In this document: positions 12,874-36,875 of the stretch, piece by piece
How the letters are laid out: each line of letters begins with the position of its first letter
Position numbering within the stretch: position 1 is the stretch's first letter
IMG/VR virus record: IMGVR_UViG_3300043449_001526
Coordinates: 1-45,089 of that record
Reading direction: 5' to 3' (one strand)
Length of the DNA: 45,089 nt
Source: a virus
Position numbers and translations under genes: made by a program
Notes under the pieces: generated by a model
The model's database searches: none
Seen by the model: the letters and a program-made list of their open reading frames with translations, nothing else
Told to the model about the DNA's origin: nothing

Positions 12874-13494
12874 ATGAGTTTAGTCCCAATGGTTATTGAA
12901 AAGACTGGTACAGGTGAACGTGCCTATGACATTTACAGTCGCTTGCTCAAAGAGCGCATTGTTATGTTGGAAGGTGAAGTACATGACCAAATGAGTAACT
13001 TAATCGTTGCACAGTTACTTTTCCTTGAAGCAGAAAATCCTGAACGCGACATTACACTGTTTATCAACAGCCCCGGTGGTAGCGTAACAGCAGGCCTTGC
13101 AATTTACGATACAATGCAATTTATCAAATGTGATGTTGCAACATACGTTATGGGTCAAGCCGCAAGCATGGGTTCATTCTTAGCACAAGCCGGCGCACCT
13201 GGCAAGCGTTTTGTTCTGCCAGAAAGCCGTACAATGATTCACCGTGTTAGTTCTGGCACACGTGGTACAAGTGGATCCGTACACGTACAAGACTTGCAGT
13301 TTGAAGATGCCAAGCGCAGTTTCGAAGAATCAGTGCGTATCAACAAACGCTTAACTGAATTGTATGTGCGCCACAACACAGCAGGCAAGACATACGACGA
13401 ATTGTTTAGCACAATGAAGTTTGATACCTTCCTAAGCTCTGATGAAGCAGTTGCATATGGACTTGCTGACAAGGTAGTTAGCAAGCGTCAATGA
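12874..13494 (+). CDS. clpP: ATP-dependent Clp protease proteolytic subunit ClpP
   Basis: 206 residues with the serine catalytic triad in place: Ser98 (GQAASMGSF), His123 (MIHRVSSG) and Asp184 ([11 protein letters not shown]), plus [18 protein letters not shown]. Length matches host ClpP. It forms a double-heptamer chamber fed by an unfoldase; the phage also encodes ClpX, with its ClpP-docking IGF loop, 30 kb away. Driven by its own consensus promoter; its stop overlaps the next gene. Targets could be host defence factors or phage proteins needing turnover. The handle region differs from E. coli (no LGG after His), so pairing with host ClpP or ClpX is an open question. Confidence 0.95.
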
Positions 13495-14417
13495 CACAGA
13501 TACAGTTTAGTTTTGACACAGGCTTAGAACTAAAGTATCAACTAATGGCGACAGAGTCTGCGAAGTTTTTTGCAGACTCTGTTCAGCTTCTTACTCCTGC
13601 AGACATAAACCCAACTTCTTTTATAAACGGATTCAGCTCTGAATCGTTTATCCCTGAACGTATTGATAAACTGTACGCAGTAGCTAATGCAATCAATACA
13701 CTGTATCCGGGACAAGTCAATATTGTGCCGCTCGAGCCAGACTGGAGAAGCGCCTTACAGCAGATGCACACGCACTTTCCAGAGCTGACAAATAATCTTC
13801 CTGGGGAAGAATTACAACGTGCAACACCATTACTTGGTGAGTTTAATGACCTAATACATTGGTTAGAAAAAGAACTTAACAGAAAATATAATGGCTCACT
13901 ATTGGATAAGTCATGGGCTACATTGTGCCTGGATTTTAATCGAGCTCCTGCATGCCGTCATGTGCCGCTGCCTGAAGCTGACTACAGGCACTTTACGCAT
14001 GAACTTTACTTTGGAAACTTACATTTACATTATGACAACGTAGGTCGACACCCATGGGAATTGTTTGGCAGTCGTGATTACATTTGTCCACCAGATCAAG
14101 TTATAAGCCAAAACCAAATCAGCCCCAGTTGCAATATGTACTTCAATGACTGGGATATACTTCGTCAAACACGTCAAGCACTGTCACTAGATAAGTACAA
14201 TGCTAGCTTTGATAAGTTTTATCAAGATCGCGGCGGGCAAGACTTTTTTAAATATGCATGCAATGATCCTCGCCTTGCTGTTGGATATTTGAAAATTGGA
14301 CAGTTGACAAATATCAAAGACTTTATAACCATCTCGGCACGTGATCAATTGCGAAATCAAATTGCCACTGGCACACTAACAGGATGGACAGTAATTGAAA
14401 AAAATATCGCAAATTAG
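13491..14417 (+). CDS. Novel radical-SAM-associated family, member A
   Basis: 308 residues without a recognised domain. By eye it aligns along its length with the proteins at complement(30010-30864), 33802-34578 and residues about 412-700 of 34575-36875. Shared features in order: an N-terminal strand then [27 protein letters not shown] (89-99); LIHWLEKEL (121-129); [19 protein letters not shown] followed by [14 protein letters not shown] (164-196); and a late AVGYLKIG strand. It overlaps clpP (ATGA) and the first radical SAM gene (14395), so it is co-translated with that enzyme. All four members sit beside radical SAM genes, suggesting a partner, substrate-binding or substrate protein. No signal peptide. 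Confidence 0.7.
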
Positions 14418-15411
14418 ACAGCACGACAATGTGCTACAGTTAACATGGTTTATAAACAATATTTGCACCAACCATTGCGATTATTGTCCGCCTGTATTAC
14501 ACAATGGGACCAACCATCATTATGATTGGGCACATGCACGTAGTTTTTTAACAAGACTTATGGATCGCCACGAGAAAATCAACTGCATTTTGTTAGGCGG
14601 TGAGCCAACTGTAAGCCCATTTTTAAATGAGGCAATTGACATGTTGCACTCTCGCGGCCATACAGTGTCGTTAACCAGCAACGGAGTACGTTCGGTAGAG
14701 TACTGGAAAAACATTGCCCCTAAAGTAAATAACGTTTCCTTTAGCTATCACCCTGCTTACGGCATCGAAGACTTTTTTGAAAAGGTAGAAGCAATTAGTA
14801 GGTACACGCAGGTTGGTGTACGAGTTATGTTTGATTCAAGACACTGGGACAAAACAATGGAGTTTTATAACAAGTGTCTTGAAGTGCCGTATCTTCGTGT
14901 CGAGGCAATTCGTGTGTTATCTGAAATTGCAGGTGGCCATACCATTGGTTCAGATTACACTCCTGAACAATTAACTTGGCTCAGTAACACTCCTTCGAGG
15001 CGAAACTTATGGTTAACTGTTGAACTAAATGATTTAAAAAATAGAAACCCATTATGGAAACCATTGTACACTGGCGCAGTCTTTTCTTACAATGATGGAT
15101 CAATTGATCGTTATGGTGACGCCAATCATTTAATTTCGTCAGAGCAAAGTTTCTTTAATGGCTGGGCATGCAGTATTGGTCTTGAAAGTTTATACATTAA
15201 CTATGACGGCCAGGTTAGAAAAGGTAACTGTAGACAAGGTGGCAACTTGTTTCACGTTGACAATCACGTGAATCATCAGTTGCCGGTTGAAGGGGAAATT
15301 TGTGTCATGGACCGCTGTACTTGCCCAACTGATATTATTGTTTCAAAGTTTCCAGTGAACCCCAATGGAAAAGCCAAGCCTTACCCAGTAATAGGATTGG
15401 TACAACAGTAA
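14395..15411 (+). CDS. Radical SAM enzyme with C-terminal Cys-rich (SPASM/twitch-like) region
   Basis: 338 residues. The CX3CX2C cluster motif is Cys24, Cys28, Cys31 (NNICTNHCDYC) and GGEP follows at 68-71, so the [4Fe-4S]/SAM site is intact. The C-terminal third has further cysteines (GWACSIGLE, GNCRQGG, CVMDRCTC), resembling the auxiliary-cluster SPASM/twitch regions of peptide-modifying enzymes. Start TTG 14395 lies within the end of gene A with AGGA upstream; no better start is visible, so it is moderately uncertain. It overlaps the next radical SAM gene by one base. The substrate is unknown; SPASM relatives usually act on ribosomal peptides or proteins. Confidence 0.85.
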   Translation: MKKISQIRQHDNVLQLTWFINNICTNHCDYCPPVLHNGTNHHYDWAHARSFLTRLMDRHEKINCILLGGEPTVSPFLNEAIDMLHSRGHTVSLTSNGVRSVEYWKNIAPKVNNVSFSYHPAYGIEDFFEKVEAISRYTQVGVRVMFDSRHWDKTMEFYNKCLEVPYLRVEAIRVLSEIAGGHTIGSDYTPEQLTWLSNTPSRRNLWLTVELNDLKNRNPLWKPLYTGAVFSYNDGSIDRYGDANHLISSEQSFFNGWACSIGLESLYINYDGQVRKGNCRQGGNLFHVDNHVNHQLPVEGEICVMDRCTCPTDIIVSKFPVNPNGKAKPYPVIGLVQQ

Positions 15412-16511
15412 TGCGCTGGAACAACGTTAAAAGTCTACACTTAGAAATAACTGCATTGTGCAATGCGGCATGTCCGGCTTGCAGTAGATATCCAACATCT
15501 AGTTACTTTGTTCATCCTTATATTTCTACCAGCGATACATGGACCATTGAACAAGTTAAGAAACGTTTGCCACCAGGTGACATCGCTGGTATTGAACGTT
15601 TCTTTATAAACGGAACACTTGGCGACTTTATTGCCAACTACCATGCACTTGAAATTGTTGAATACTTCCGAGAATGTGCGCCCCGGGCCGAAATACGCAT
15701 CAACACCAACGGTTCGGCTAGAACAACTGAATGGTGGGCAAGACTAGGCACTATTCCAAACGTGCATGTTGCCTTTGCAATTGATGGTCTTGAGTACACA
15801 CATGAACTGTATAGAAGAAACACAGACTGGAATACTATCATAAGAAATGCTCAGGCATTTATACAAGCCGGTGGCACAGCTGAATGGGTAATGACAGTAT
15901 TCAAACATAACGAACATCAAGTTGACGACTGTAGCGCACTGGCAATACATTATGGGTTCAAACATTTTACCAGCCGCTTTAACAATAGACCTCATGTACC
16001 AGTCAGGGATCGCGAAGGTAAAACAATTTATAAATTAGAATCAGCAACCAACACGCCGTTGACAATGTTGCAAGATGTTGATGAAAAGTGGATGGTACTT
16101 AAAGAAGCCAAATTTCAACAAGATAAAATAATCTTAATGAAGCAGGAGCGGCGCGGTTTGCCGTTGAATGGTGGCCAAAGTGACTGCGGTAGTCTGACAC
16201 GTAATGAAATTTATATCAGCGCACAATGGGCAGTTGTGCCCTGTTGTTTTCTTGGCAACGCTATGTTTTACAAAGAGTCTGATCGATATTACGATGACAT
16301 GGTCAATTTAGCAAAACAACATGGCGTAGACATCGCAAATTTAGTTGCCACTGATGACAGAACAGTTGCAAGTATAGTAGATGCTGGGTTTGACTGGGTA
16401 TACGAAAGTTTACATACTACAGATGCACTATCAACCTGCTACCAAAATTGTAACTCTAAAACCGCACCTTTTGCAGTTGGCCAAACGCACAGAACCATAA
16501 AAAAATTGTAA
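15411..16511 (+). CDS. Radical SAM/SPASM enzyme
   Basis: 366 residues with CX3CX2C at Cys17, Cys21 and Cys24 (ALCNAACPACSR). The C-terminal part has SDCGSLTRNEIYIS, VVPCCFLGN and CYQNCNS, a typical SPASM-type cluster-ligand layout. FFINGTLGD stands where GGEP usually lies, so the SAM-binding motif is divergent. Coupled to the upstream radical SAM gene (TAATG), it is the last gene of the clpP-A-rSAM-rSAM string; no terminator follows. A two-enzyme radical SAM cascade acting on one substrate is inferred from the coupling. Confidence 0.84.
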   Translation: MRWNNVKSLHLEITALCNAACPACSRYPTSSYFVHPYISTSDTWTIEQVKKRLPPGDIAGIERFFINGTLGDFIANYHALEIVEYFRECAPRAEIRINTNGSARTTEWWARLGTIPNVHVAFAIDGLEYTHELYRRNTDWNTIIRNAQAFIQAGGTAEWVMTVFKHNEHQVDDCSALAIHYGFKHFTSRFNNRPHVPVRDREGKTIYKLESATNTPLTMLQDVDEKWMVLKEAKFQQDKIILMKQERRGLPLNGGQSDCGSLTRNEIYISAQWAVVPCCFLGNAMFYKESDRYYDDMVNLAKQHGVDIANLVATDDRTVASIVDAGFDWVYESLHTTDALSTCYQNCNSKTAPFAVGQTHRTIKKL

Positions 16512-16538
16512 AAACGGCTAAATTTCTTCAAAAAACAC

Positions 16539-16567
16539 TTGACAAACGGGCTACACGAGCGCATAAT
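16539..16567 (+). promoter_or_regulatory. sigma70-type promoter of the NAD salvage genes
   Basis: TTGACA 16539-16544 and CATAAT 16562-16567, 17-bp spacer. The predicted leader of about 55 bases contains the hairpin at 16611-16629. Confidence 0.75.
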
Positions 16568-16610
16568 AGAACTAAGTAAACAAGCAAAGGGATAGACCCA
16601 GAGCACATTT

Positions 16611-16629
16611 ATTGTAAGGATTTTACAAT
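16611..16629 (+). promoter_or_regulatory. Hairpin with ribosome site in loop, overlapping the start codon
   Basis: ATTGTAA (16611-16617), loop GGATT, TTACAAT (16623-16629): a perfect 7-bp stem whose 3' arm contains the first two bases of ATG 16628 and whose loop exposes the GGA of the ribosome site. A similar arrangement precedes the NAMPT gene. Confidence 0.5.
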
Positions 16630-16954
16630 GTCAAAATTAACACTCTTCGCAATCGAAGAAAAAATCAAACAACACGAGCAAGGTCTCAAAGACTTGCAAG
16701 CCCAACTGATTGAGGCTAAACTCGAATCCCCTGATCACCAACTTGCTAAAGAATTGCATAGTCTGCTTTGCACTCATAACCATACTGATGGTTGCGGTTG
16801 GCACTATGAATTTAAAAACAAAAAAGATGACTGGACTGGTCACGCACATACCGAGTACTTGAAAAAAGCACAAAAACTCATTTGTCATTGCGACAAAGAA
16901 GGTATGGACATTGCTACCACACTCACTGCATTCAAATTGATTAGGGGTTACTAA
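16628..16954 (+). CDS. Hypothetical protein, 108 aa, His/Cys-rich
   Basis: An N-terminal coiled coil (IEEKIKQHEQGLKDLQAQLIE) is followed by CTHNHTDGCGWHYE and a later ICHCDK, a possible zinc-binding arrangement. It is the first gene after the promoter at 16539 and lies one base from nadM, so it is co-expressed with the NAD salvage enzymes; whether it takes part is unknown. No family recognised. Confidence 0.55.
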   Translation: MSKLTLFAIEEKIKQHEQGLKDLQAQLIEAKLESPDHQLAKELHSLLCTHNHTDGCGWHYEFKNKKDDWTGHAHTEYLKKAQKLICHCDKEGMDIATTLTAFKLIRGY

Positions 16955-16955
16955 A

Positions 16956-17972
16956 ATGAAAAAATACGACACACTGGTCCTAATCGGACGCTTTCAACCG
17001 TTCCACAATGCTCACCTTGAGATTGTCAAACGTGCCACAGCACTTTGTGACAAGTTGGTCATTGTAGTTGGCAGTTCACGCCAACCACGCACTTATAAGA
17101 ACCCGTTCTCATTCGAAGAACGTGCCCGAATGATTCGCGAAGCTACTATGGGCTTGAGCTTGCAAATCAGCATTGAGCCAAACATTGATACCATTTACAA
17201 CGACCAAGCCTGGGCAGTTCGAGTTCAGCAAATTGTTGCACAGCACACCAAGCCCGGTGACCGTGTAGGCATTATTGGTCACAAAAAAGACGACAGCTCG
17301 TTCTACCTTGACATGTTCCCGCAATGGGGTTATGAGGATGTTGAGTTGGTTGAGTTTTTGAGTGCAGTTGATGTCCGTGACTTGTATTTCAAGTGGACGT
17401 TTAACAGCAACTTTATCAAGAACGTTGTGCCGGACAGCACTTATGAGTCGCTAATGGCCTTTCGTAGGACCGAAGAGTTTGCACAAATTGTCCGAGAGCG
17501 AGAGTTCATTGCCGAACACAATAAACAATATGCAGGCTTGAAGTATCCTCCAATCTTCAGTACAGCAGACGCAGTTGTTATCTGTTCAGGCCATGTGCTG
17601 ATGATTAAACGCCGTGCTGAACCTGGTAAGGGTTTGTGGGCACTGCCCGGCGGCTATGTTAACGCCAACACTGACAAGAGTGTAGAAGATGCAGCCATAC
17701 GTGAGCTTCGCGAAGAAACACAAATCAAAGTACCTGCTCCAGTGCTTCGCGGTAGCATTGTACGCAGTAGGGTCTTTGACGCTATTGGTCGTAGTCCCCG
17801 CGGAAGAATTATTACTCATGCGTTTCACATCCAATTGCCCGACGGCGAACTGCCAAAGGTAAAAGGAAGTGATGATGCTGAAAAGGCACGGTGGGTGCCT
17901 ATTGCAGAAGTTCTCAGTGAACAATGCTTTGAAGACCACTATGAAATCCTACAGCATTTTGTAGGTGCCTAA
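16956..17972 (+). CDS. nadM: Bifunctional NMN adenylyltransferase/Nudix hydrolase (NadM-Nudix)
   Basis: 338 residues. The N-terminal half is a nucleotidyltransferase with GRFQPFHNAHLE (GxFxPxHxxH) and SSRQPRTYKNPFSFEER, as in archaeal-type NadM; the C-terminal half contains a complete Nudix box, GGYVN...AIRELREET. This fusion is known from bacteria (Synechocystis, Francisella) and T4-like phages such as KVP40. It joins NMN and ATP to NAD+; the Nudix part typically hydrolyses ADP-ribose or related nucleotides, clearing products of NADases. With the adjacent NAMPT it forms the two-step nicotinamide-to-NAD+ route, NAD+ reconstitution pathway 2 of phages. Confidence 0.95.
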   Translation: MKKYDTLVLIGRFQPFHNAHLEIVKRATALCDKLVIVVGSSRQPRTYKNPFSFEERARMIREATMGLSLQISIEPNIDTIYNDQAWAVRVQQIVAQHTKPGDRVGIIGHKKDDSSFYLDMFPQWGYEDVELVEFLSAVDVRDLYFKWTFNSNFIKNVVPDSTYESLMAFRRTEEFAQIVREREFIAEHNKQYAGLKYPPIFSTADAVVICSGHVLMIKRRAEPGKGLWALPGGYVNANTDKSVEDAAIRELREETQIKVPAPVLRGSIVRSRVFDAIGRSPRGRIITHAFHIQLPDGELPKVKGSDDAEKARWVPIAEVLSEQCFEDHYEILQHFVGA

Positions 17973-17998
17973 GCGATAGACGCAAAGGTTGATTTAAC

Positions 17999-18015
17999 TT
18001 TAAAGGAACTTTAAA
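17999..18015 (+). promoter_or_regulatory. Hairpin with ribosome site in loop before the NAMPT gene
   Basis: TTTAAA (17999-18004), loop GGAAC, TTTAAA (18010-18015), directly followed by ATG 18016. A six-pair A/T stem shows GGA in its loop, like the element before 16628. ACTTTAAA is also a direct repeat here. Confidence 0.4.
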
Positions 18016-19416
18016 ATGAAACTCGCAAAAAACATTATTCTCAACACTGACAGCTACAAAGTTAGCATGTTCAAACAATATCCTGCAGGCACCACTGGTG
18101 TTTACAGTTACATTGAAAGCCGAGGTGGCCGATACGATCGTACCGTGTTCTTTGGTTTGCAAGCATTTATCAAGGAGTACTTAATTGATCCGATCACGCA
18201 GGCTGACATTGACATTGCAGACGAGATACTCACGGCCCACGGGGAGCCATTCAACCGTGCCGGCTGGGAGTACATTCTCCGGGTCCACGGAGGGAAGCTA
18301 CCGGTCGTTATTCGTGCTGTTCCTGAAGGCACAGTGGTACCTGTTAAAAACGTTCTGGCAACAATCGAAAACACTGACCCAGAATGCTACTGGCTCACAA
18401 CTTGGTTGGAGACTGCTTTGCTTAGGGCTATTTGGTACCCTACTACTGTGGCTACTCAAAGCTACACTATCCGTAAAGTTATTCTAGACGCATTGGAGAA
18501 AACAGGTGACCCTTCCCTTATCGATTTTAAGTTGCACGATTTCGGTGCTCGTGGTGTTTCTAGCTTGGAGTCAGCGGCTATCGGAGGTGCGGCCCACTTG
18601 GTTAACTTCATGGGTAGTGATACTGTTTCTGGTGTTCTGTATGCTCGCGAATACTATGATGCTGGGATTGCAGGTTTTTCTATCCCTGCCGCAGAGCACT
18701 CAACAATTACTAGCTGGGGCCGTGATGGCGAAGTAGATGCTTACAGAAACATGCTCAACCAATTTGCCAAGCCTGGCTCTATTTTGGCTATCGTATCTGA
18801 TTCTTACGATATCTACAATGCCGTCGACAAACTCTGGGGTGAAACGCTTCGTCAACAGGTTATTGATAGCGGGGCTACCGTTGTTATTCGTCCAGACAGT
18901 GGCGATCCTGACGTTGTGTGCCGTCAACTAGTTCAGAAACTTGATGCCAAGTTTGGTAGCACAGTAAACAGCAAAGGATTCCGAGTGCTGAACAATGTGC
19001 GTCTGATCCAAGGCGACGGTGTTAACGAAAACACCATCCGTACAATTCTTGGTTCGTTCCAAGCATACGGATACTCCGCAGACAACATTGCATTTGGTAT
19101 GGGTGGTGCGCTACTGCAACAAGTGGATCGTGACACTCAACGTTTTGCAATGAAGTGCTCTAGTGCCCAGATCAACGGTACTTGGGTCGATGTGCAAAAG
19201 GACCCTATTACTGACAGTGGTAAAAAGTCTAAGGCAGGTCGTGTCACACTGTGGACCAACACAGGTGGTGAGTTTGCTTCTAGCGTAACTGCACCTACTG
19301 GCTGGACTGATCGAGGGATTGGTGGTTGGACTAACGCACTTGAAGAAGTGTACCGCGATGGCAAACTTGTTGGCGAAATTGACTTTGCTACAGTTCGGGC
19401 AAACGCTCGCAAATAA
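18016..19416 (+). CDS. nadV: Nicotinamide phosphoribosyltransferase (NAMPT/NadV)
   Basis: 466 residues, the usual NAMPT length. Diagnostic segments: an N-terminal ILNTDSYKVSMFKQYP, YSYIESRGG, FGARGVSS, AAEHSTITSWG (the catalytic His equivalent), and VVIRPDSGDP carrying the Arg and Asp that bind phosphoribose and nicotinamide. It makes NMN from nicotinamide and PRPP in the cytoplasm. Preceded by nadM after 43 bases and followed by a strong hairpin that probably ends the transcript. Codon use shifts slightly towards CTC/GGG in the first third (18180-18440), which may reflect recent acquisition, but this is a visual impression only. Confidence 0.96.
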   Translation: MKLAKNIILNTDSYKVSMFKQYPAGTTGVYSYIESRGGRYDRTVFFGLQAFIKEYLIDPITQADIDIADEILTAHGEPFNRAGWEYILRVHGGKLPVVIRAVPEGTVVPVKNVLATIENTDPECYWLTTWLETALLRAIWYPTTVATQSYTIRKVILDALEKTGDPSLIDFKLHDFGARGVSSLESAAIGGAAHLVNFMGSDTVSGVLYAREYYDAGIAGFSIPAAEHSTITSWGRDGEVDAYRNMLNQFAKPGSILAIVSDSYDIYNAVDKLWGETLRQQVIDSGATVVIRPDSGDPDVVCRQLVQKLDAKFGSTVNSKGFRVLNNVRLIQGDGVNENTIRTILGSFQAYGYSADNIAFGMGGALLQQVDRDTQRFAMKCSSAQINGTWVDVQKDPITDSGKKSKAGRVTLWTNTGGEFASSVTAPTGWTDRGIGGWTNALEEVYRDGKLVGEIDFATVRANARK

Positions 19417-19422
19417 AGCGTA

Positions 19423-19454
19423 AAGATAGGTAGACAGAAATGTCTACCTATCTT
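19423..19454 (+). terminator. Perfect 14-bp GAAA hairpin, probable terminator overlapping a promoter
   Basis: AAGATAGGTAGACA (19423-19436), loop GAAA, exact complement 19441-19454. It starts six bases after the NAMPT stop. Only TTATAATA follows, so the U-tract is weak. Its left arm supplies the -35 box and its end the first T of the -10 box of the next promoter. Confidence 0.65.
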
Positions 19455-19459
19455 ATAAT
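19431..19459 (+). promoter_or_regulatory. sigma70-type promoter within the hairpin
   Basis: TAGACA 19431-19436 and TATAAT 19454-19459, 17-bp spacer. It drives the AAA ATPase at 19497 (AAAGGAT site). Confidence 0.7.
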
Positions 19460-19496
19460 AGTTGAATACTAACAAAGACATACACAAAGGATTTAC

Positions 19497-20588
19497 ATGT
19501 CTTACTTTTTGAAATCTGGCAACACTTTCCGCGTATCTACCAAAGAAGCAATGGATCTGCATGATGCATTGCCGGCTGGTAACTATGTGGTTAAAGAGAT
19601 GCCAATGGATGGTCCATTGTATTTGGAGCATATCGAGTCTTTTGAGATTAAAGGTAAGCGTTACGGAGACCTTGACAAGAACACCGATCGCATTTTGCGT
19701 ACCTTCATGGATCGTACAGCATCTACTGGTGTAATGCTGGCTGGTGAAAAGGGTTCTGGTAAGTCATTGCTTGCTAAGAACCTGGCCATTGAAGCGGCTG
19801 CTCGTCTCAATATCCCGTGCATTGTTATCAATGCCCCTTGGGTTGGCGACAAGTTTAATGCGTTCATGCAAATGATTGAACAGCCTTGCATGGTTCTGTT
19901 TGATGAGTTTGAGAAGGTGTATGATGAGGGAGATCAGGAAAAGGCATTGACCTTGCTGGATGGTGTATTCCCTTCTAAGAAGTTGTTTGTTCTTACTTGC
20001 AACGACAAGTGGCGTGTGAACCAACACATGCGTAACCGTCCGGGTCGACTGTTCTACATGTTGGACTACAAAGGTCTTGATGCAAATTTTATCACCGAAT
20101 ACTGCAATGACAATCTGAAGCCAGAACTGCAAAAGCACACTGAAAAGTTGTGCCAAATTGCAAGTTTGTTTAGTCAGTTCAACTTTGACATGTTGAAAGC
20201 AACTGTCGAAGAAATGAACCGCTACGATGAAGAACCTCAAGATGCTTTGCGTATGCTGAACGTCAAGCCTGAATTTGACAGTGGCAACAAGTTTACCATC
20301 AAGATCATCCAAGAAGGTGAAGAAGTCAAGATGGAAGACATGGACCAAGCTGAATGGAATGGCAACCCACTGCAAAGCGAAGTTCGCTTGCATGTTAAAA
20401 AGTACAATGGCGAAAAGGACGAAGACGGCGACGAAGAATGGGATTGGAATCGTGTTCGCTTTACAGCTTCTGATCTTAAAAAGATTGACAGCCAAATGGG
20501 CCGCTTTGTTTTTGTCAACAGCGATGGCGTTACACTGACCCTTAATAAGGTCCAAGAAAAGTCATATAGCTACTACGATGCGTTTTAA
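19497..20588 (+). CDS. AAA+ ATPase
   Basis: 363 residues. Walker A is GEKGSGKS at 83-90, Walker B CMVLFDEFEK with Asp136-Glu137, then a sensor-like VLTCNDKW and an RNRPGR arginine finger, all as in classical AAA proteins. The C-terminal 100 residues are acidic (EKDEDGDEEWDW) and unlike known adaptors. Phage proteins of this kind include chaperone-like and replication-associated ATPases; the specific role is not visible. It is a single-gene unit flanked by a promoter and a strong terminator. Confidence 0.85.
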   Translation: MSYFLKSGNTFRVSTKEAMDLHDALPAGNYVVKEMPMDGPLYLEHIESFEIKGKRYGDLDKNTDRILRTFMDRTASTGVMLAGEKGSGKSLLAKNLAIEAAARLNIPCIVINAPWVGDKFNAFMQMIEQPCMVLFDEFEKVYDEGDQEKALTLLDGVFPSKKLFVLTCNDKWRVNQHMRNRPGRLFYMLDYKGLDANFITEYCNDNLKPELQKHTEKLCQIASLFSQFNFDMLKATVEEMNRYDEEPQDALRMLNVKPEFDSGNKFTIKIIQEGEEVKMEDMDQAEWNGNPLQSEVRLHVKKYNGEKDEDGDEEWDWNRVRFTASDLKKIDSQMGRFVFVNSDGVTLTLNKVQEKSYSYYDAF

Positions 20589-20602
20589 AACGTAAGTATT
20601 AC

Positions 20603-20634
20603 AAAAGCGTTGTAGAAATACAACGCTTTTTTTT
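20603..20634 (+). terminator. Intrinsic terminator after the AAA ATPase gene
   Basis: Stem AAAAGCGTTGTA (20603-20614), GAAA tetraloop, TACAACGCTTTT (20619-20630), and eight T in a row. A textbook rho-independent terminator. Confidence 0.93.
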
Positions 20635-20645
20635 GACTAAAATGG

Positions 20646-20674
20646 TTGACTTCTGAACCAAGAACCAGTATAAT
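20646..20674 (+). promoter_or_regulatory. sigma70-type promoter, recurrent cassette
   Basis: GG-TTGACT 20646-20651, TATAAT 20669-20674, 17-bp spacer, followed by AAACACATAAACAGCAAGGAG. The downstream segment recurs at 22233 and 23827. Confidence 0.85.
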
Positions 20675-20701
20675 AAACACATAAACAGCAAGGAGCACTC
20701 T

Positions 20702-20923
20702 ATGTGGAGTCTAGAAGGTCAATATGTTCAAGCTCGTTATTTGGACACCTACACTGTAGTGGGCAAGGTCGAATCGAGTCGTGTAGCATACGGTGGTCGT
20801 GTACACCACACCTTGGTCCTGGACAAACCAATTAACCTGTTTGGTACTGAGCGTGATCGTGTTATCGTCGAGCACCAAACTGTAGAACGCATTGCTAGCC
20901 GTGCTGAAAGTTTTGAAGTATGA
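20702..20923 (+). CDS. Hypothetical beta-rich protein, 73 aa
   Basis: ATG 20702 with AAGGAG upstream, first gene of a promoter unit. The sequence alternates polar and hydrophobic residues (QYVQARYLDTYTVVGKVESS), suggesting a small beta barrel such as an SH3-like fold. No family recognised. Overlaps the next gene by ATGA. Confidence 0.6.
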   Translation: MWSLEGQYVQARYLDTYTVVGKVESSRVAYGGRVHHTLVLDKPINLFGTERDRVIVEHQTVERIASRAESFEV

Positions 20924-21315: not shown

Positions 21316-21324
21316 GGATTTAAA

Positions 21325-28703: not shown

Positions 28704-28903
28704 ACGAACGAATTAAACAACTTGCTGAGCAGGCTACAAAACAAGTAACGAAACCAGACGGACACTACATTGTCCAAGAATGGCAGAGAGTGTTCGCTGA
28801 GTTGATTGTAGCTGAAACTCTTGACAAGATCAACGCCGGCATGGAATTTACTTGGCCGGAAATGGAAGTAAAGATTAAAGAACACTTTGGAGTTCGAGTA
28901 TGA
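28700..28903 (+). CDS. MNERI-type phage protein, copy 2 (67 aa)
   Basis: Begins MNERIKQLAEQATKQV, has VFAELIVAETLDKI and ends IKEHFGVRV; paralogue of the gene at 27838. Small soluble helical protein, unknown role. ATGA at both ends. Confidence 0.6.
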   Translation: MNERIKQLAEQATKQVTKPDGHYIVQEWQRVFAELIVAETLDKINAGMEFTWPEMEVKIKEHFGVRV

Positions 28904-29043
28904 TTCTAATCTGCGACGATTACAATGAAGTGTATGTTTGGGTCGATGACGATGATCACGACCATGAACTAAGCCCGCACTTTGATTACGAAGAAGATGC
29001 AATTGCATGGCGAGAACGTATCAAGCAAGAAGTTACCAAATGA
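28900..29043 (+). CDS. Small very acidic protein, 47 aa
   Basis: Sequence VYVWVDDDDHDHELSPHFDY, very rich in Asp, Glu and His; could bind divalent metal or mimic nucleic acid. ATGA coupling at both ends. No family recognised. Confidence 0.5.
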   Translation: MILICDDYNEVYVWVDDDDHDHELSPHFDYEEDAIAWRERIKQEVTK

Positions 29044-29246
29044 GCAAGCAATTGCGGCCTGGTCATCCTGATTTTAGTTTTAGAGAGGGGTCGATGGTAA
29101 TCACTCGTGCGGCTTTTGAAATCAGCAATAACTGCCCAGCTGAATACAAAAGTATTTTTGTCACTGCAATCAATGCTGGGTGGCTCAAACCTGTTGCTTA
29201 TATAAGCGACGAAGAATACATGATCATGCAGTTGTCTAAAGAATAG
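29040..29246 (+). CDS. Conserved phage-type protein, 68 aa
   Basis: ATG 29040 overlaps the preceding stop. The order RPGHPDF...MVITRAAFEIS...SIFVTAINAGWLKPVAYISDEEY is of a kind I recall in phage proteins of unknown function. Small, soluble, mixed alpha/beta. Confidence 0.6.
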   Translation: MSKQLRPGHPDFSFREGSMVITRAAFEISNNCPAEYKSIFVTAINAGWLKPVAYISDEEYMIMQLSKE

Positions 29247-29256
29247 AAAGAACAAC

Positions 29257-29484
29257 ATGAAAGACATTCAAGGATTTACATTCACAGTAGGTTGCAAAGT
29301 TGCGCGGGCAGTAATCTGGGGCAACAGTCCGCGACTTGAAATTTGTACAGTAACAAAGATCGTCGACGGCAAGCTATACTTGGATAACAGCAAGCAAGCA
29401 ATACGAGCCCTAGACCGATTAGTAATCATCGAACATGATCCGCTAATTAAGTTAGTAGACGAACACGTAAAGGATACAGTATGA
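29257..29484 (+). CDS. Small beta-barrel-like protein, 75 aa
   Basis: ATG 29257 with a weak AAAGAA ribosome site. FTFTVGCKVARAVIWGNSPR and KIVDGKLYLDNSKQA suggest an SH3-like small barrel, as for the protein at 24761. ATGA coupling to the next gene. Confidence 0.55.
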   Translation: MKDIQGFTFTVGCKVARAVIWGNSPRLEICTVTKIVDGKLYLDNSKQAIRALDRLVIIEHDPLIKLVDEHVKDTV

Positions 29485-29726
29485 CAAAAATTGTAAGCAT
29501 TGACCCAGCAGGTGATGAACGCGAACGCATCAAAGCAGACTTGCTAGAAGTTCTTGACGAAATGCGTGAGCAAATTGAAAGCGGTGACATCATACAGTTT
29601 GTGGCCACCAGCATGCTCGACGATGGCGAAACACAAATTCACAGCATGGTATCAGACCTACCAACAGCAGTGGGTCTGTATGAAATTGGCAAGCACATGA
29701 TTATCCAACAAGAGGCTTACGAATGA
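29481..29726 (+). CDS. Small acidic protein, 81 aa
   Basis: Helix-rich N-terminus (ERIKADLLEVLDEMREQIES) and a strand-containing C-terminal half. Coupled at both ends. No motif recognised. Confidence 0.55.
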   Translation: MTKIVSIDPAGDERERIKADLLEVLDEMREQIESGDIIQFVATSMLDDGETQIHSMVSDLPTAVGLYEIGKHMIIQQEAYE

Positions 29727-30013
29727 TTGAGTTTGGCTTTGACTTTTCGCCGCTGACTCGTGAGTTTAAAAACCACTGGAGTCGGGCCTGGGACACACCA
29801 TTCAAGCACAAGTTTGTTGAGCTTGAGTTGTACTCAACTGAGTCACTCGTTCGCCTTAACTTTTTGTGGACCACAAAGCGCGATCATGCTGGATTAGATC
29901 TTCAGTTATCGTTGTTTGGTTTCTGCTTGCACTTTAACTTTTACGATAACCGACACTGGAACCACGAAGCAGGCCGCTATTACAAATACTCTGAAGAGCT
30001 AGGCCAGTATTAG
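29723..30013 (+). CDS. Conserved phage-type protein, 96 aa
   Basis: The pattern HKFVELELY...RDHAGLDLQLSLFGF...NFYDNRHWNHE is one I recall as widespread in phages; beta-rich, no assigned activity. Last gene of the small-gene array; its TAG stop overlaps the stop of the convergent minus-strand gene. Confidence 0.65.
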   Translation: MIEFGFDFSPLTREFKNHWSRAWDTPFKHKFVELELYSTESLVRLNFLWTTKRDHAGLDLQLSLFGFCLHFNFYDNRHWNHEAGRYYKYSEELGQY

Positions 30014-30864
30014 TCTTCTAACGCCCAATGGCGAACATGCACATCTGTACTGTCTAATAGCCATTGGGTTAGGCTATCAGCGTTCCAGTCAATTGGCGTG
30101 CCAATAACACAGTGACCGCCGGTATGCATTGGGTTACGACAGTCATACCCATATTTGTCAAATATGTTGTTATCGTCGCACCACTTGTAATATTGCACAG
30201 GTTGGTGACTTGCATTGGTTCCTGTGATATAACAATTGACCGCAGGCGTTAGCGTTTCTTTTGGTCTAACCATTCGATTCTGAATCAACTCTAAATCGTT
30301 GTCTATATAACAGTGGTACAAATTTTTCCCTATCGTTGCATAACTTAAAATCAGTGCACCTGGCTCAATTGAATAATTATTAAACTCCAAGAAGTCAGAT
30401 TCTGACAATCCCTCACAGTCAAACACATTGAAGTTTACTACCAAATTGCCAAACTTTTGTTTCCAATACATATTCGACATACACGCCTCTGCATTGTGAA
30501 CAATGTAGTTTAATTGGTCGACATCTTTATCGCTTGGCATATCTTCGGCCATTGAATGAAACTTCAGATGTAGCTGATTCAACGACTCTCGTGTCAAGTT
30601 TTCAAACCAGCTATTTGGAATATCAAATCCCTTTGTTAGATTCAGCTTATTACAAATAGCCGACATGTTGCTTACAATTTTATCAAGATGCTCTTGTGTG
30701 TAGCCAACTGTGTACCAATCAAACGCAGAATGATAGTTTTCATTTTGTCTTGGAGTAGTTTTTAACATGTTGGCCCAGCGTGTTGCCATTGTTGAATCTT
30801 TAATATCCCATCGCAACGTTTTGTCTTGGCATTGCAAGTTGGTTAAAGTAATCGTTAGTTTCAT
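30010..30864 (-). CDS. Novel radical-SAM-associated family, member B
   Basis: 284 residues on the minus strand, divergent from a twitch radical SAM gene. It aligns by eye with member A and its paralogues: an N-terminal strand and LRWDIKDSTMATRWANML; LNQLHLKFHSMAED (95-108); LNYIVHNAE (118-126); PGALILSYATIGKNLYHCYI then DND (168-190); and a late HCVIGTPIDW. Several Cys residues (71, 150, 185, 211, 229, 242, 252) are not shared with the other members, so they are not a conserved cluster site. No signal peptide. The role is unknown; the constant neighbourhood suggests it works with the radical SAM enzymes. Confidence 0.68.
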   Translation of the reverse strand: MKLTITLTNLQCQDKTLRWDIKDSTMATRWANMLKTTPRQNENYHSAFDWYTVGYTQEHLDKIVSNMSAICNKLNLTKGFDIPNSWFENLTRESLNQLHLKFHSMAEDMPSDKDVDQLNYIVHNAEACMSNMYWKQKFGNLVVNFNVFDCEGLSESDFLEFNNYSIEPGALILSYATIGKNLYHCYIDNDLELIQNRMVRPKETLTPAVNCYITGTNASHQPVQYYKWCDDNNIFDKYGYDCRNPMHTGGHCVIGTPIDWNADSLTQWLLDSTDVHVRHWALED

Positions 30865-30915
30865 GCAAATACTTATCTGGGAATGTTACCAAGATTGTGT
30901 CAGCTATATAACAGT
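30865..30915. promoter_or_regulatory. Divergent intergenic spacer between member B and twitch rSAM gene
   Basis: 51 bases separate the two start codons. No TTGACA/TATAAT pair is present in either direction. On the + strand TATATAAC (30905-30912) ends three bases before ATG 30916, a weak match to a late-type box. No convincing ribosome site for either gene. Confidence 0.25.
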
Positions 30916-32217
30916 ATGAATTCATCGAATATTCCAAAAAGTTTTTGCATCCTTCCTTGGATCCATACAGCCATTGATCCTGATGGTACCATCCGCCCTT
31001 GTTGTATGGCTGACTTTGGATATCGCATGGGCGACCTTAATAAGACCCCGTTGCTCAAAGACATTTTTAACAACGACAAATACAAAGCGTTTCGTTTAGA
31101 AATGATCAATGGCCCCGAACTGCCTGCACCGTGTAGAAGTTGTAAAATCCAAGAAGAAGTGGGAACCGAATCATACCGTACTCGAAAAAATCAAATCTAC
31201 GCTGACGTAATCGACAACCTCGATCCCAGCCCCGACGGCACTGCTGAATTTTTACAATTATACATTGACTATCGATTGTCTAACAAGTGTAACTTCAAAT
31301 GTATCACATGCGGCCCACAATTGAGCTCTAGTCATGCACTTGAAGTCATCAAGATACACCAACACAATCCAGATTTTCCAAAAAATGCTTACATTGAAGT
31401 TAGCAACTTTACTGAACAATTTAAGACATTCAGCAAAGATATACGTGAAATTTACTTTGCAGGTGGCGAACCGATGATCATGGATCATCATTATGAAATT
31501 TTAAATTTGTTCATTGAGTCCCAGCAGCCAGTGATTGTCAGCTACAATACAAATCTCAGTGAGCTCAATTACAAGGGAATTGATGTAGTTAAATTGTGGA
31601 GCAAGATCAATGGACCAGTTAGGATAGGTGCCAGCATCGACGGATTTGATACAGCAGGTGAGACTATCAGATTTGGGTTAAGCTCGGAAACATTTAAACA
31701 CAACATAGAAAAAATAGCCAATGGCCCCAGCAACTTGCATTTTGGATTTAACATTACTTTTGGTATTACCAACTACGAGTCTGTAGTAAGCACCACCCGA
31801 GAGTTACTACAATTGGTGCCCAAAGATAAAGAATTCTATATTACATATAACCCAATCTTTGGACCAGAAGAATTTGCAGTACACTTGTTAAGCACCTGGC
31901 AAGCCAATCGCGCAGTTGACCTAATTACTAGTCAAATTGACGAACTTGAACGTGAGTTGCAAACAACTTATCACCAAGGCGGCCCGTATAATGCATACAA
32001 TGCAATAAAACATCTAAGAGAAGATTTTTTAAAAGTTATCAAAGAGTCACCAGCTAACCAGTTGCAAATCAACAGGAAAGATATTATACTAAATGCAATA
32101 AGCAGATTAGATAGTCAAGAGTCAATTAGAAAAACTGATTGGAGGCGAGACCTGCCTTCCATGTATCGAGACTGGCAAGAAATCCTACAAGAAGAAAGCA
32201 CCAAAAATGAGCAATAA
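30916..32217 (+). CDS. Twitch-type radical SAM protein
   Basis: 433 residues from ATG 30916, preferred over ATG 30883 because homology-like sequence starts at SFCILPWIHTAIDPDG. An N-terminal cysteine region (Cys11, Cys29-Cys30, Cys73, Cys76) resembles a half-SPASM (twitch) auxiliary-cluster site placed ahead of the core, as in proteins named twitch-domain radical SAM. The core has CX3CX2C at Cys125, Cys129 and Cys132 (NKCNFKCITC) and GGEP at 183-186. Overlaps the second twitch gene by 11 bases. Substrate unknown; the divergent partner is novel-family member B. Confidence 0.85.
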   Translation: MNSSNIPKSFCILPWIHTAIDPDGTIRPCCMADFGYRMGDLNKTPLLKDIFNNDKYKAFRLEMINGPELPAPCRSCKIQEEVGTESYRTRKNQIYADVIDNLDPSPDGTAEFLQLYIDYRLSNKCNFKCITCGPQLSSSHALEVIKIHQHNPDFPKNAYIEVSNFTEQFKTFSKDIREIYFAGGEPMIMDHHYEILNLFIESQQPVIVSYNTNLSELNYKGIDVVKLWSKINGPVRIGASIDGFDTAGETIRFGLSSETFKHNIEKIANGPSNLHFGFNITFGITNYESVVSTTRELLQLVPKDKEFYITYNPIFGPEEFAVHLLSTWQANRAVDLITSQIDELERELQTTYHQGGPYNAYNAIKHLREDFLKVIKESPANQLQINRKDIILNAISRLDSQESIRKTDWRRDLPSMYRDWQEILQEESTKNEQ

Positions 32218-33805
32218 GCCATCACCGCAGATGAAACAAATGGATCAATTTACAAAAAACATCGTTGAAACAGAACAAAAGCTAAACGACATTAGCCCCT
32301 CCATGTGTATGGCCAAATGGTATCAAGTCACAATCCATTTACAAAACGGTCATACCCACAGTTGCCATCACCCAGGTACACATCAAGTTCCGTTAGAAGA
32401 ACTAGAAGCCAATCCATCTGCTCTGCACAACACACTTCACAAGAAGAAACTACGTGAGGAAATGGTCACTGGCGTGCGTCCCAAAGAATGTGACTACTGC
32501 TGGCGCATTGAAGATGTAGGTGAACGCTCAGACCGTACATATAAAAGTGCTGATTCTTGGGCACGTTCTTATATTCCCATTGTAGAAGAAGCAAAGAAAA
32601 CTGGTACGCTGTTGGACTTTGCCAATGCAGACGTGAACCCAACTTATGTTGAAGTGGTGTTCGATCATACTTGCAACTTCAAGTGCGCTTATTGTGCTCC
32701 TAACATTAGCTCAAGTTGGATGGAAGAAATTGAACAGCATGGCCCTTACTTGACTGCCCCTTACTTTAACGACCTGCGTTGGATTGAAAAGCAAGGGCAA
32801 ATGCCAATTCCCAAGCGTGAAGAAAACCCTTATGTGGAAGCGTTTTGGAAGTGGTGGCCTACCCTGGTTCCGGGCCTGCATACATTCCGTATCACAGGCG
32901 GCGAACCTATTCTAAGCAAGAACACGTTTAGAGTAATGGATGACATTATTGAAAACAATCCTAACCCCAACCTGCATCTTGCCATCAACTCAAACCTGTG
33001 TGTGCCTGATAAGTTGTTCAATGACTTTGTTGTCAAATTGAACCGTGTGCGTAACAACGTGCAAAAGGTCACAATCTATACCTCCATTGACACGTTTATT
33101 CCTGCACACAATGAATACATTCGTACCGGCATGGAACACGACAAGTTCTGTGCGTCAGTGGAAAAGCTACTGGACACAGTTGAGCAAGAGATTACACTCA
33201 GCTTCATGATCACTATCAGTGCCTTAAGCGTATATGGCACTCGCGAGTTGGTAGAGTGGATCTACAAGTTAAAAGAAAAATACAAGGGCAAGCACCGTCT
33301 AATGCCCGACTTCCCTTACTTGCGTCACCCCGAATTCTTGTGCGTGGATATCAATCCTGAAGATGCAGTTGTTGAATTAGAACGTGCCCTGGAGTTTGTT
33401 AAAGCTAAGAGTGTAAGCGAAATGAGCAAGACTTGGGAACAAGAGGAAAAAGACAAGTATGCATTTAACTGGAAGAACTATGCGTTCTTTGATGACTTTG
33501 CAGTACAGCGTTTAGGCCGTGTAATTGAATTTGCTCGTGACAAGATTGCTAACCCAAATCCAAAGTTAAGCACACACATGGAAGACTTTGCATTATATGT
33601 TGATGAATACGATTTCCGTCGTGGTACTAACTTTGTAGAACTATTCCCGCAAATGGAGAAGTTTTACAATCGTGCCAAGACCATGCTGATTGCGTCAGGA
33701 CGCCCACGCAACGCACGTGAAATTGCCAAGGACACAACAGTTGCAGTCATTCCTGTCAGCAGTATCAAACGTCTTAACAAAGCCAAATCTCTATTTGACC
33801 AATGA
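32207..33805 (+). CDS. Twitch-type radical SAM protein
   Basis: 532 residues. The N-terminal cysteines (Cys34, Cys53, Cys95, Cys98 in ECDYCW) form the probable auxiliary-cluster site; the core motif is Cys156, Cys160, Cys163 (HTCNFKCAYCAP) and GGEP is at 231-234. It is related to the upstream gene but about 100 residues longer, with a helical C-terminal extension ending in a basic segment. Coupled to the upstream radical SAM gene (11-bp overlap) and to member C (ATGA), so these are made as a set. Confidence 0.86.
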   Translation: MSNKPSPQMKQMDQFTKNIVETEQKLNDISPSMCMAKWYQVTIHLQNGHTHSCHHPGTHQVPLEELEANPSALHNTLHKKKLREEMVTGVRPKECDYCWRIEDVGERSDRTYKSADSWARSYIPIVEEAKKTGTLLDFANADVNPTYVEVVFDHTCNFKCAYCAPNISSSWMEEIEQHGPYLTAPYFNDLRWIEKQGQMPIPKREENPYVEAFWKWWPTLVPGLHTFRITGGEPILSKNTFRVMDDIIENNPNPNLHLAINSNLCVPDKLFNDFVVKLNRVRNNVQKVTIYTSIDTFIPAHNEYIRTGMEHDKFCASVEKLLDTVEQEITLSFMITISALSVYGTRELVEWIYKLKEKYKGKHRLMPDFPYLRHPEFLCVDINPEDAVVELERALEFVKAKSVSEMSKTWEQEEKDKYAFNWKNYAFFDDFAVQRLGRVIEFARDKIANPNPKLSTHMEDFALYVDEYDFRRGTNFVELFPQMEKFYNRAKTMLIASGRPRNAREIAKDTTVAVIPVSSIKRLNKAKSLFDQ

Positions 33806-34578
33806 CACAGTTTGTAGCGCATTTTGAAAACTCTGACGAAACACCGGCTCCAAGTCATGTGTTTCGTTTAGCAGAGTCTCCGTTAGCAGAAGATTGGTTT
33901 GAAACAGTCAAAGCAGGAGTAACTCACATTGCTTCTGCTGGCGCACCAACTGACACAAGAAAATTACGCCAGTGGCAAATTATCCGCTATCATATTAACC
34001 AAGCCAACGAAGATCATCTATTAGACGAATGGATTCATTTCCCCTTAGAAATAGTCAACGACTTTCAGCCACTATTAAATAGTATCCGACTTCGTGCTCA
34101 CGCATTTGAATTGTATGCGTCTGCTAACAATCAGCAAAGCCAAACACGGTCGAGCCTATTGCGAGTAATACAAGCAATTGATGCATTTGAAGCAACAGTT
34201 GATCCTGCAGGTTATCAATCGTATTTGCGCTTTCAGCATAATCGCGTAGAATTTACACGAGCAGAAAAGACTAACACAGTAACACCAGGCACGATTGTGT
34301 TAGTTCAGCCTCCGCCAAAGCGCACAGCATATCAAATGTATCGTGCAAAGGATACTACCTTACTTGAGAAAAGACTGATGCGGCCTTGGATTAGCACTAT
34401 GTCCGAATATTCAATGATTGTGTTAAATCAGCATAAAGAATTAATTGACCCCGATACAATGCCTTTATGCGCTGATAACTATGTTATGAATAACACGGTT
34501 CCAGTTGCAACATTAGTTGATACTAGCAATATGGAATCTATTTCAACAACAAGAATAGTGAGAATAGAAGCAATATGA
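33802..34578 (+). CDS. Novel radical-SAM-associated family, member C
   Basis: 258 residues, the most diverged paralogue. Matches the family in order: FVAHFEN then HVFRLAESPLAEDWFETV; LLNSIRLRAHAFE (91-103); VIQAIDAFE (122-130); PGTIVLVQPPPKRTAYQMYR then AKDT (162-185); and VPVATLVDTSN. The His residues of the LHxxFH motif in members A and B are replaced (IRLRAH), so if those are functional this copy may be non-catalytic. ATGA overlap with the radical SAM gene before and member D after it. Confidence 0.6.
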   Translation: MTQFVAHFENSDETPAPSHVFRLAESPLAEDWFETVKAGVTHIASAGAPTDTRKLRQWQIIRYHINQANEDHLLDEWIHFPLEIVNDFQPLLNSIRLRAHAFELYASANNQQSQTRSSLLRVIQAIDAFEATVDPAGYQSYLRFQHNRVEFTRAEKTNTVTPGTIVLVQPPPKRTAYQMYRAKDTTLLEKRLMRPWISTMSEYSMIVLNQHKELIDPDTMPLCADNYVMNNTVPVATLVDTSNMESISTTRIVRIEAI

Positions 34579-36875
34579 GCACATTGTACATCGCAACAAC
34601 TAACCATTTGTTGCACCAAAAAACTTATCCCCGAGAGTATGTAGATACGCTATTGCGAACCTTAAAGTTTAAGTTAGCAGGCGACGAAGTAATTGAACTG
34701 GTTGAATTTAATTACCTTGGGGGACTATTAAAGAAATTAGTAGCAGAATCCGATTACGATAACATTGTAATGTTTCCAGCAGATTTGGTCAATTATGAAG
34801 TACTAGACGAACTAAAGGAACGTGCTGGCAGTGCCGCAATGGCTGCAAGCATTAATCTGCCCAATACTGAATTTGATTATCATAGTGTTGGTCTTGATTT
34901 GTTGTACATTGACTTTCAAAAACTAAAAGCACTATCTTTTGTTGATTTTGGCGGCCAAATGACATTTAAAGATGAGTTGTATTTGCACTATCCCCAACTT
35001 GAAGGCACTACATATTCATACCGTTCAACCGAAAACGTTAGCAATGTACGTTTTGGCAGCGGTTGGATCTTAATAAGCCAGATACTTAACAATCGTTATA
35101 CTATCGAAAACGTGTCAGAACTGCAATGCAGGAAACTCAAGCACCATGATTATTTGCTAACAGCGTTGGCATCAAATAAAACACCCGACGGAATTGAGTT
35201 TGGCCAAGATCAAATCAATTGGTTAGAACTTGCCAGACAAGCAGTTGTAGCACAATGGCAAGCCGACTTGGCTAACAATTTAATCTTTTCTGCCCAACTT
35301 ACTTCTCAATTTATTACTAATGATACTCGAGTAGAAAACTACTACACTGTAGTTGACTTTGAATCGTTGAAATACTTTCAGACTTTAAGTCGCGACGATA
35401 GAACTCGTATTGTATTCTTGTCAACAAATAATGCAACATTAGAACAGTTGAAAGTTATTTTAGCTAACTGGAACGGTACAAATGCTGCCACCATTGTCAA
35501 TGACGCAGAACTTGTTTCCAAGTTAGAAACTTTTTATAATAGCTTTACCCCAGAAGAATTTGAGGAATTTTGGACTTATCTGAACAGCATTTATCATGCT
35601 TTTTATCTAACAGATTCTATTGATTTTGTAAACGATATTGAATCACAGCGATATGTTAATAATGTAGTTTGGGCTGGTGCTAGCGGATTTGTTCCGGGAC
35701 TTGTTGGACTAGCATCAAAGACTTTAGATGCAACAGAAGTAGTTTACAAACACGAAGGACGATATGCCGTTAGAAAAATTGGTACTCGTGTCTTTCAACG
35801 CGATCTTTATAAAGAACTTTATATTACATTCAGAGATACAGTTACCAATGAAGAACAGCGTGTACGATACACTATCGACGATCATTTGTTAGGACAAAAA
35901 TGGGCACGATGCTGTCACTATGATTATTTGTTAGCTGAAAAGTCAATTGTTGAAAAGAACTATATGCTACAGCATTGGGAATACAAAGAGGGCAATCCAA
36001 ATGCCCGCGACATTCCAGCATTGTGCAGTGAAATGAATAGATACGTTACAGTTATTAACGAGTACTTTGATGGCAGTGCTGAAGATCGTGTTCCTTACCA
36101 TATTACACAATACTTTGATCCTGCTACATTAGATCAACAAATTCTCAATGAGATTCACCATCACTTTGAATTACTAATTGGTCAAGTATGGAGTGTAAGC
36201 GAATACTACAAAATGGCAAACTGGGCAGTTAAATTTGCCATCAGACAGTTGAATAATTTATGTCACGAAATGGAAAGTCTGCGCCGTCCAGGATTGCGTC
36301 AAACCAATGGTAAATGGAGTGCTGGTATCTATTTCCCTTGGATTCCAACTACACGCTATAAATTCGTAGAAAGCGATTATGATCACTTTACACAGGTACA
36401 GCGTTTTGGTGACTTATGCTTACACTATGCCCAACTTGGAAAGACCCCGCTTGAAGCGTATGCCGGGCGAGATGAGGAAGTGTTTGATGATAATATTACA
36501 GGACTTCGTTATCTAAGCGGTGAATTTGATATTATGTTTATGCCTGACAAAAGCCCCGAATCACAGTTGGCAAACTTGGCTCGTTTCAATGAACAAGCGT
36601 TTCAGTGGATTCGAGAACGCGGACAAGACCCCGAAAGCAAATTTACAGGAATTGGCTTTATACCTGTTGCACGATTTAATCGTGACGATTTCCCGGGCAT
36701 GACTGCTGAACAAGTCATGCTTCGCTTATTTGAATTTGATGACATTTTTAAATTAGAGCTAGTGGATGGTGCAGGTAATGTCATTGTCGATCGAACATTT
36801 GATTACACTTGGCGCGATGTATTAGATAAAACAGACCCAACTCGCGAAGGCAAGTTTGGTTCAATGTTTGATTAA
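34575..36875 (+). CDS. Large protein with C-terminal novel-family domain, member D
   Basis: 766 residues. Residues 412-700 align with members A-C: LYITFRD then RVRYTIDDHLLGQKWARCC; LNEIHHHFE (524-532); LNNLCHEME (559-567); DYDHFTQVQRFGDLCLHYA then QLGKTPLEAYAGRD (601-633); and FTGIGFIPVARF (690-701). The first 400 residues are different; an N-terminal Rossmann-like stretch (MSTLYIATTNHLLHQ, then SDYDNIVMFPADLV) vaguely recalls nucleotide-sugar or sequence-reading domains, but I cannot assign it. Last gene of the B/rSAM/rSAM/C/D cluster; nothing like a terminator follows. Confidence 0.65.
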   Translation: MSTLYIATTNHLLHQKTYPREYVDTLLRTLKFKLAGDEVIELVEFNYLGGLLKKLVAESDYDNIVMFPADLVNYEVLDELKERAGSAAMAASINLPNTEFDYHSVGLDLLYIDFQKLKALSFVDFGGQMTFKDELYLHYPQLEGTTYSYRSTENVSNVRFGSGWILISQILNNRYTIENVSELQCRKLKHHDYLLTALASNKTPDGIEFGQDQINWLELARQAVVAQWQADLANNLIFSAQLTSQFITNDTRVENYYTVVDFESLKYFQTLSRDDRTRIVFLSTNNATLEQLKVILANWNGTNAATIVNDAELVSKLETFYNSFTPEEFEEFWTYLNSIYHAFYLTDSIDFVNDIESQRYVNNVVWAGASGFVPGLVGLASKTLDATEVVYKHEGRYAVRKIGTRVFQRDLYKELYITFRDTVTNEEQRVRYTIDDHLLGQKWARCCHYDYLLAEKSIVEKNYMLQHWEYKEGNPNARDIPALCSEMNRYVTVINEYFDGSAEDRVPYHITQYFDPATLDQQILNEIHHHFELLIGQVWSVSEYYKMANWAVKFAIRQLNNLCHEMESLRRPGLRQTNGKWSAGIYFPWIPTTRYKFVESDYDHFTQVQRFGDLCLHYAQLGKTPLEAYAGRDEEVFDDNITGLRYLSGEFDIMFMPDKSPESQLANLARFNEQAFQWIRERGQDPESKFTGIGFIPVARFNRDDFPGMTAEQVMLRLFEFDDIFKLELVDGAGNVIVDRTFDYTWRDVLDKTDPTREGKFGSMFD

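Follow-up and report, generated by a model that had tools for sequence, protein, structure and literature searches.

Proteins A, B and C and the C-terminal half of protein D, all encoded in a 45-kb IMG/VR virus contig (45,089 nucleotides, analysed at full length and referred to here as the window), are by sequence comparison homologous members of a single family without an earlier name, which we call FAM. FAM is often fused to, or placed beside, radical SAM enzymes, a hydroxylase and a protein resembling sugar transferases, which makes it a probable part of a molecule-modifying machine. It could well be one of the core subunits, and probably a catalytic one, of a tailoring complex that occurs in aquatic phages as well as in Bdellovibrionota, a phylum noted for its predatory bacteria.

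The FAM copies and their predicted fold

The family is represented in the window by four features:

13491..14417, + strand: FAM copy A, 308 aa, placed by homology, a left-out-clade profile and an AF2 model
30010..30864, - strand: FAM copy B, 284 aa, transcribed divergently from the adjoining radical SAM gene
33802..34578, + strand: FAM copy C, 258 aa, degenerate, placed by a C-clade profile
35805..36782, + strand: FAM copy D (residues 411-736 of protein D), family profile E 4e-88

The initial annotation had proposed four related copies at positions that proved correct, and their relationship was confirmed by leave-one-clade-out profiles, in which the family profile is built without the clade under test. 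Such profiles recovered A at 1e-38, B at 4e-42 and D at 6e-77, values that place all three in the family beyond doubt. The most divergent copy in the window, C, gave 0.099 alone against the family profile built without its clade. A three-sequence C-clade profile, by contrast, hit the C-free family at 5.7e-10; for 23 control proteins from elsewhere in the window the best value was 0.011. Pairwise comparisons by BLASTP linked A to D (9e-9 to 2e-6, via orthologs), A to B (2e-4) and B to C (~0.01). With independent ortholog profiles, hhalign linked A to D (3e-7), B to C (8e-8), B to D (5e-6) and A to B (1e-4), and gave no significant match for A-C or D-C.

The absence of a known family, also claimed in the initial annotation, was borne out, since Pfam, PHROGs, PADLOC and the PDB contain no family that matches FAM. 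A scan of a 65-sequence FAM alignment against Pfam, PqqD/RRE included, gave zero credible matches; A-D have no profile match to PF04055 (radical SAM) and none to the anti-phage defence proteins of PADLOC. Sequence searches of the PDB returned chance-like matches only (the best one, a designed helical protein, at 0.007), and a tblastn search of INPHARED with A, D, several FAM relatives and NX (the second domain of D, described below) found nothing.

An AlphaFold2 model of A, built from the 65-sequence alignment, has a pLDDT of 90.9 and a pTM of 0.86. Foldseek found no relative of this model in the PDB (best E 0.79) and ten uncharacterised phage proteins at E < 1e-5, one of them from the Agrobacterium phage Atu_ph07; TMq values for the six best other phage proteins range from 0.47 to 0.69, with about 0.6-0.7 at the top of the list, where a 768-residue phage protein of D-like length has a TM of 0.69 to the A model. 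The FAM fold is thus confidently predicted by modelling and absent among solved structures. Of the ordered motifs noticed earlier, the strand motif around A 175-196 and two helix motifs, one with H93 and the other with N119, H123 and E126 (A numbering), make up the conserved core. Expressed as fraction of sequence weight, conservation is 0.98 for E126, 0.95 for N119 and D196, and 0.92 for H93 and H123, and position 186 is K or R at 1.00; G185 and N90 are also among the most conserved positions, the latter being N in most members and Q in A. Copy C carries the substitutions H93->R, N119->I, H123->D, Y181->Q and G185->K; it has lost half of the putative pocket residues and is probably a non-catalytic partner.

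Radical SAM genes, NX and the hydroxylase

The window contains exactly four radical SAM genes, which are listed here with the other features that bear on FAM:

10912..11657, + strand: IscU-like and IscA-like Fe-S assembly genes (PF01592 E 2e-52, PF01521 E 6e-17)
14395..15411, + strand: radical SAM gene adjoining A (PF04055 E 4e-8; below NCBIfam subfamily cut-offs)
15411..16511, + strand: second radical SAM gene by A (PF04055 E 2e-10; phrog_21308 E 1e-17)
30883..32217, + strand: SPASM/twitch radical SAM protein (NF033640 278 bits, cut-off 170; PF13186, PF04055)
32207..33805, + strand: twitch-domain radical SAM protein (NF033640 315 bits, cut-off 170)
34575..35802, + strand: NX domain (residues 1-409 of D), homologous to stand-alone proteins (hhalign E 3.9e-9)
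41016..41762, + strand: candidate Asp_Arg_Hydrox-like component of hydroxylase type, lying 4 kb from D (PF05118 E 1.8e-4; 21.8 bits, below the cut-off of 22.6)

The products of 30883-32217 and 32207-33805 are full members of the twitch radical SAM proteins (NCBIfam NF033640), whereas FAM neither contains a radical SAM domain nor shows similarity to these proteins. Against the same model the 15411-16511 product scores just 37.8 bits and the 14395-15411 product has no match. The latter also fails as a viperin/pVip, with 33.6 bits to NF038283 (cut-off 180) and 41 bits to the PADLOC pVip over residues 16-118 only. In one Bdellovibrionota chromosome, a relative of the 32207..33805 type shares an operon with FAM.

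The IscU-like and IscA-like genes are a plausible supply for the radical SAM clusters. Phage-encoded IscU, IscA-like, ClpP and ClpX genes occupy 10912-11657, 12874-13494 and 43385-44617, and the window resembles in this respect the radical-SAM-rich T4-like marine phages, which, in the portions of PMC5332604 covered, have IscU, IscA-like and ClpP genes alongside several radical SAM genes. Those portions describe a T4-like genome with 12 radical SAM genes and treat such genes as part of iron-sulfur metabolism. The window further contains an NAD salvage pair at 16956-19416, made of an NMN-adenylyltransferase/NUDIX-like gene (read by eye) and NAMPT (PF04095), and at 6224-7534 a divergent asparagine-synthase/QueC-like ATPase with weak profile matches only.

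The claim that every copy abuts a radical SAM gene holds for A, B and C and not for D, which adjoins C and is separated from a radical SAM gene by one gene. In phages, FAM genes outside a lone clade of ~380-aa proteins have a radical SAM gene within five genes in 57/59 cases and adjacent in 46/59, the background for genes of the same loci being 36% and 8%; these 59 informative genes come from loci found through FAM or NX, and related contigs among them do not count as independent. In the lone ~380-aa clade, whose 60 members are monophyletic apart from a G044 gene nested among them, linkage is at background, with 18/48 within five genes and 1/48 adjacent. In the loci of this clade (L038-L098) a PTPS/QueD-like gene before FAM and a GT8-like gene after it are both conserved. 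The radical SAM link of FAM is real but partial: it stands for most phage clades, including a FAM-radical SAM fusion, it is weak in cells, and in the ~380-aa clade it does not rise above background, an outcome that the initial annotation had named as counting against its proposal. As a separate observation, several phage contigs carry 9-14 radical SAM matches, many in tandem (G007 55-75 kb, G042 58-81 kb, G044 234-241 kb, G046, G011 and G031).

In protein D, FAM is fused to NX, another protein without a name, which also exists as stand-alone proteins of 461-468 aa adjoining FAM in G004, G007 and G042. The model of an NX relative is of moderate quality (pLDDT 77.5) and its fold matches, GT-A-like and methyltransferase-like, are weak (E about 1e-3, best PDB 2e-4, TM about 0.2). 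On this model NX, a protein of two domains, weakly resembles a GT-A glycosyltransferase joined to a methyltransferase. Another recurrent neighbour, HYD, is Asp/Asn beta-hydroxylase-like (PF05118 at about 1e-11, with scores over the Pfam cut-off in G004, L154 and L159), and a carbamoyltransferase (PF16861/PF02543) is a further partner. Fusions join FAM to radical SAM (G007/G042), NX to radical SAM, NX to FAM (window D and G279) and the hydroxylase to NX (G080), and in G101 FAM, hydroxylase and NX form a single 1072-aa protein, encoded at L378:4756-7974, with an adjoining carbamoyltransferase. As separate genes, radical SAM and FAM make up an operonic pair in G067 (L315:8322-10738), and G098 has a HYD-NX-FAM set. 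The order radical SAM-FAM-(radical SAM)-HYD-NX is repeated in many phage contigs, some of them near-duplicates of each other. These fusions and the repeated gene order define a FAM-hydroxylase-NX-radical SAM module.

Cellular relatives and the age of the copies

A provisional view of FAM as phage-only, based on 27 cellular radical SAM loci without it, was overturned by a whole-genome search, which found it in 39/369 Bdellovibrionota genomes and, weakly, in 1/398 sampled Pseudomonadota genomes. Most of the FAM-bearing cellular genomes are drafts; the genes lie in long contigs with housekeeping genes, some of these contigs exceeding 3 Mb. Radical SAM genes are adjacent to cellular FAM in 5/44 cases and within five genes in 13/44 (background 4.6% and 19%), and most cellular FAM genes have no adjoining radical SAM, HYD or NX. 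NX is present in 13/369 Bdellovibrionota genomes, 10/13 of which also have FAM (hypergeometric 1.3e-8, with relatedness ignored).

Cellular and phage sequences interleave in the FAM tree, which is midpoint-rooted and has long branches, so its details are uncertain. A is placed with L369, B with the NX-FAM fusion of G279 and D with genes of G067 and G229, and the nearest cellular relatives differ among A, B and D. Orthologs of the window copies exist in related phages; compared with those of G002/G003, A has a dN/dS of 0.06-0.10, C one of 0.11 and B, whose dS is near saturation, one of 0.20; for D, dS is saturated. On these sequence comparisons the window copies are old lineages under purifying selection, with dN/dS of about 0.06-0.2 where measurable, and for this reason strong selection for variety, suggested by the initial annotation, is unsupported. 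Identity to G002 is 40% for B and 47% for its adjoining radical SAM gene (both fast), 78% for A and 80% for its radical SAM neighbour (both slow), and 79% for C and 94% for its neighbour. These figures hint at FAM-radical SAM pairing, from three pairs only, and block exchange would look alike.

Possible role of FAM

We infer for FAM the catalysis, pocket, acceptor and order of steps that follow. Radical SAM enzymes and HYD would act on a shared acceptor, either a surface glycan or a surface/virion protein; NX would add a sugar and/or a methyl group, and a carbamoyltransferase may cap the modified acceptor. FAM, whose usual partners are HYD (a 2-oxoglutarate enzyme), NX, twitch-type radical SAM enzymes and often the carbamoyltransferase, would bind the acceptor and perform one step in a putative pocket lined by N90, H93, N119, H123, E126, K/R186 and D196. 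Such an acceptor is suggested by the hydroxylase, the GT-like NX, the carbamoyltransferase and GDSL-like esterases, together with the location of the radical SAM cassettes of related phages in a host-recognition island; the portions of PMC7029224 covered place the cassettes of pelagimyophages within the host recognition cluster. In cells, reading by eye places twitch radical SAM genes close to genes that resemble those for polysaccharide export and for glycosyltransferases, a context that leans towards a glycan. Radical SAM, HYD and NX are missing beside FAM in the ~380-aa clade and beside most of its cellular genes, so FAM can work without the module.

A lean towards a protein acceptor comes instead from a Cys/His-tail protein of Atu_ph07, an isolated Agrobacterium jumbo phage. 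The remote FAM homolog of this phage (hhalign 2e-4, single sequence) is the 300-aa protein matched by fold; the gene lies between radical SAM genes, the protein also gave a weak match to the profile at full sensitivity, and it was not found in the A8 profile genome search. Within the same radical SAM cluster, Atu_ph07 121118-122008 (L122:11119-12009) encodes AUZ94952.1, a protein of 296 aa with the Cys/His tail ...DFCHSSCHASCHNSRSRR, which matches phrog_35144 at E 1e-6 and looks like a radical SAM substrate or precursor. A search for precursors with Cys/His tails found none in the window or its relatives, the Atu_ph07 protein being the sole find, and a search for precursor peptides in the window found none. 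Neither a jumbo-phage review nor the Atu_ph07 paper mentions radical SAM.

Short peptides, mostly of 31-48 aa and ending in ...KxLKKKDPFIY(K/D), are widespread in viral contigs, usually beside a carbamoyltransferase or a GDSL-like esterase and often by radical SAM clusters (G002 after D, L028 ~8640-8740; L036 ~7319; L116 ~19361; L123 ~3076; and 80 loci, L189-L268). The ...KDPFIYK peptide was considered as a FAM substrate and rejected, given that by DNA pattern it is widespread and mostly beside carbamoyltransferase, with FAM in 0/80 loci.

It is rather unlikely that FAM is a non-catalytic recognition scaffold, comparable to RRE/PqqD chaperones, that presents a peptide or protein to radical SAM enzymes. 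The multiplicity of copies, of which three adjoin a radical SAM gene each, the FAM-radical SAM fusion and the interleaving of the Atu_ph07 homolog with radical SAM genes and a precursor-like protein would fit such a role, and RiPP radical SAM systems also have small partner proteins beside their enzymes. FAM, however, is no PqqD/RRE by Pfam, and its predicted fold is a different and larger one that matches nothing in the PDB. Its near-invariant polar residues suit an active site better, clades without radical SAM exist, and no Cys/His-tail protein was found in the window or its relatives. FAM is more likely an enzyme than a scaffold.

Less probable still is hitch-hiking, that is, that FAM is an independent surface-metabolism enzyme collecting, like the radical SAM genes, in a hypervariable host-recognition island such as the one described in the covered portions of PMC7029224. 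The lone clade, at background linkage between PTPS-like and glycosyltransferase-like genes, and the mostly solitary cellular genes agree with this explanation, against which stand the several kinds of fusion, the conserved gene order and the co-occurrence of FAM with NX. That FAM proteins are themselves the substrates (structural or precursor) modified by radical SAM enzymes, another proposal of the initial annotation, is very improbable, as it has adjacency in its favour and against it the enzyme-like conservation of N/H/E/K/D residues, its fusion with enzyme domains, the existence of chromosomal copies that have no radical SAM, and alignments that show no variable core or repeat region.

Among known systems, the collagen-type enzymes LH3, COLGALT1 and mimivirus R699, which the NX model matches weakly, provide a works-like analogy only, in that a hydroxylase is paired with a GT-A enzyme. 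The module differs from them in having no PDB sequence similarity, a hydroxylase of another family (PF05118) and additional FAM and radical SAM parts. Neither FAM nor the FAM/NX/HYD module is mentioned in the covered portions of PMC5332604 and PMC7029224, within a literature scope of few subscription papers and no preprints.

Tentatively, FAM might represent a new class of enzyme with a novel fold, acting together with NX, the 2-oxoglutarate hydroxylase and the radical SAM enzymes to install a glycan or protein modification not described before, in a system that moved repeatedly between Bdellovibrionota and aquatic phages. For radical-SAM-rich aquatic phages, FAM provides a defined family of partner proteins, a module that recurs and a link to Bdellovibrionota chromosomes. 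The confidently predicted fold without a solved relative, the three-part polypeptide of G101 and the Atu_ph07 homolog make structure, activity and substrate directly testable.
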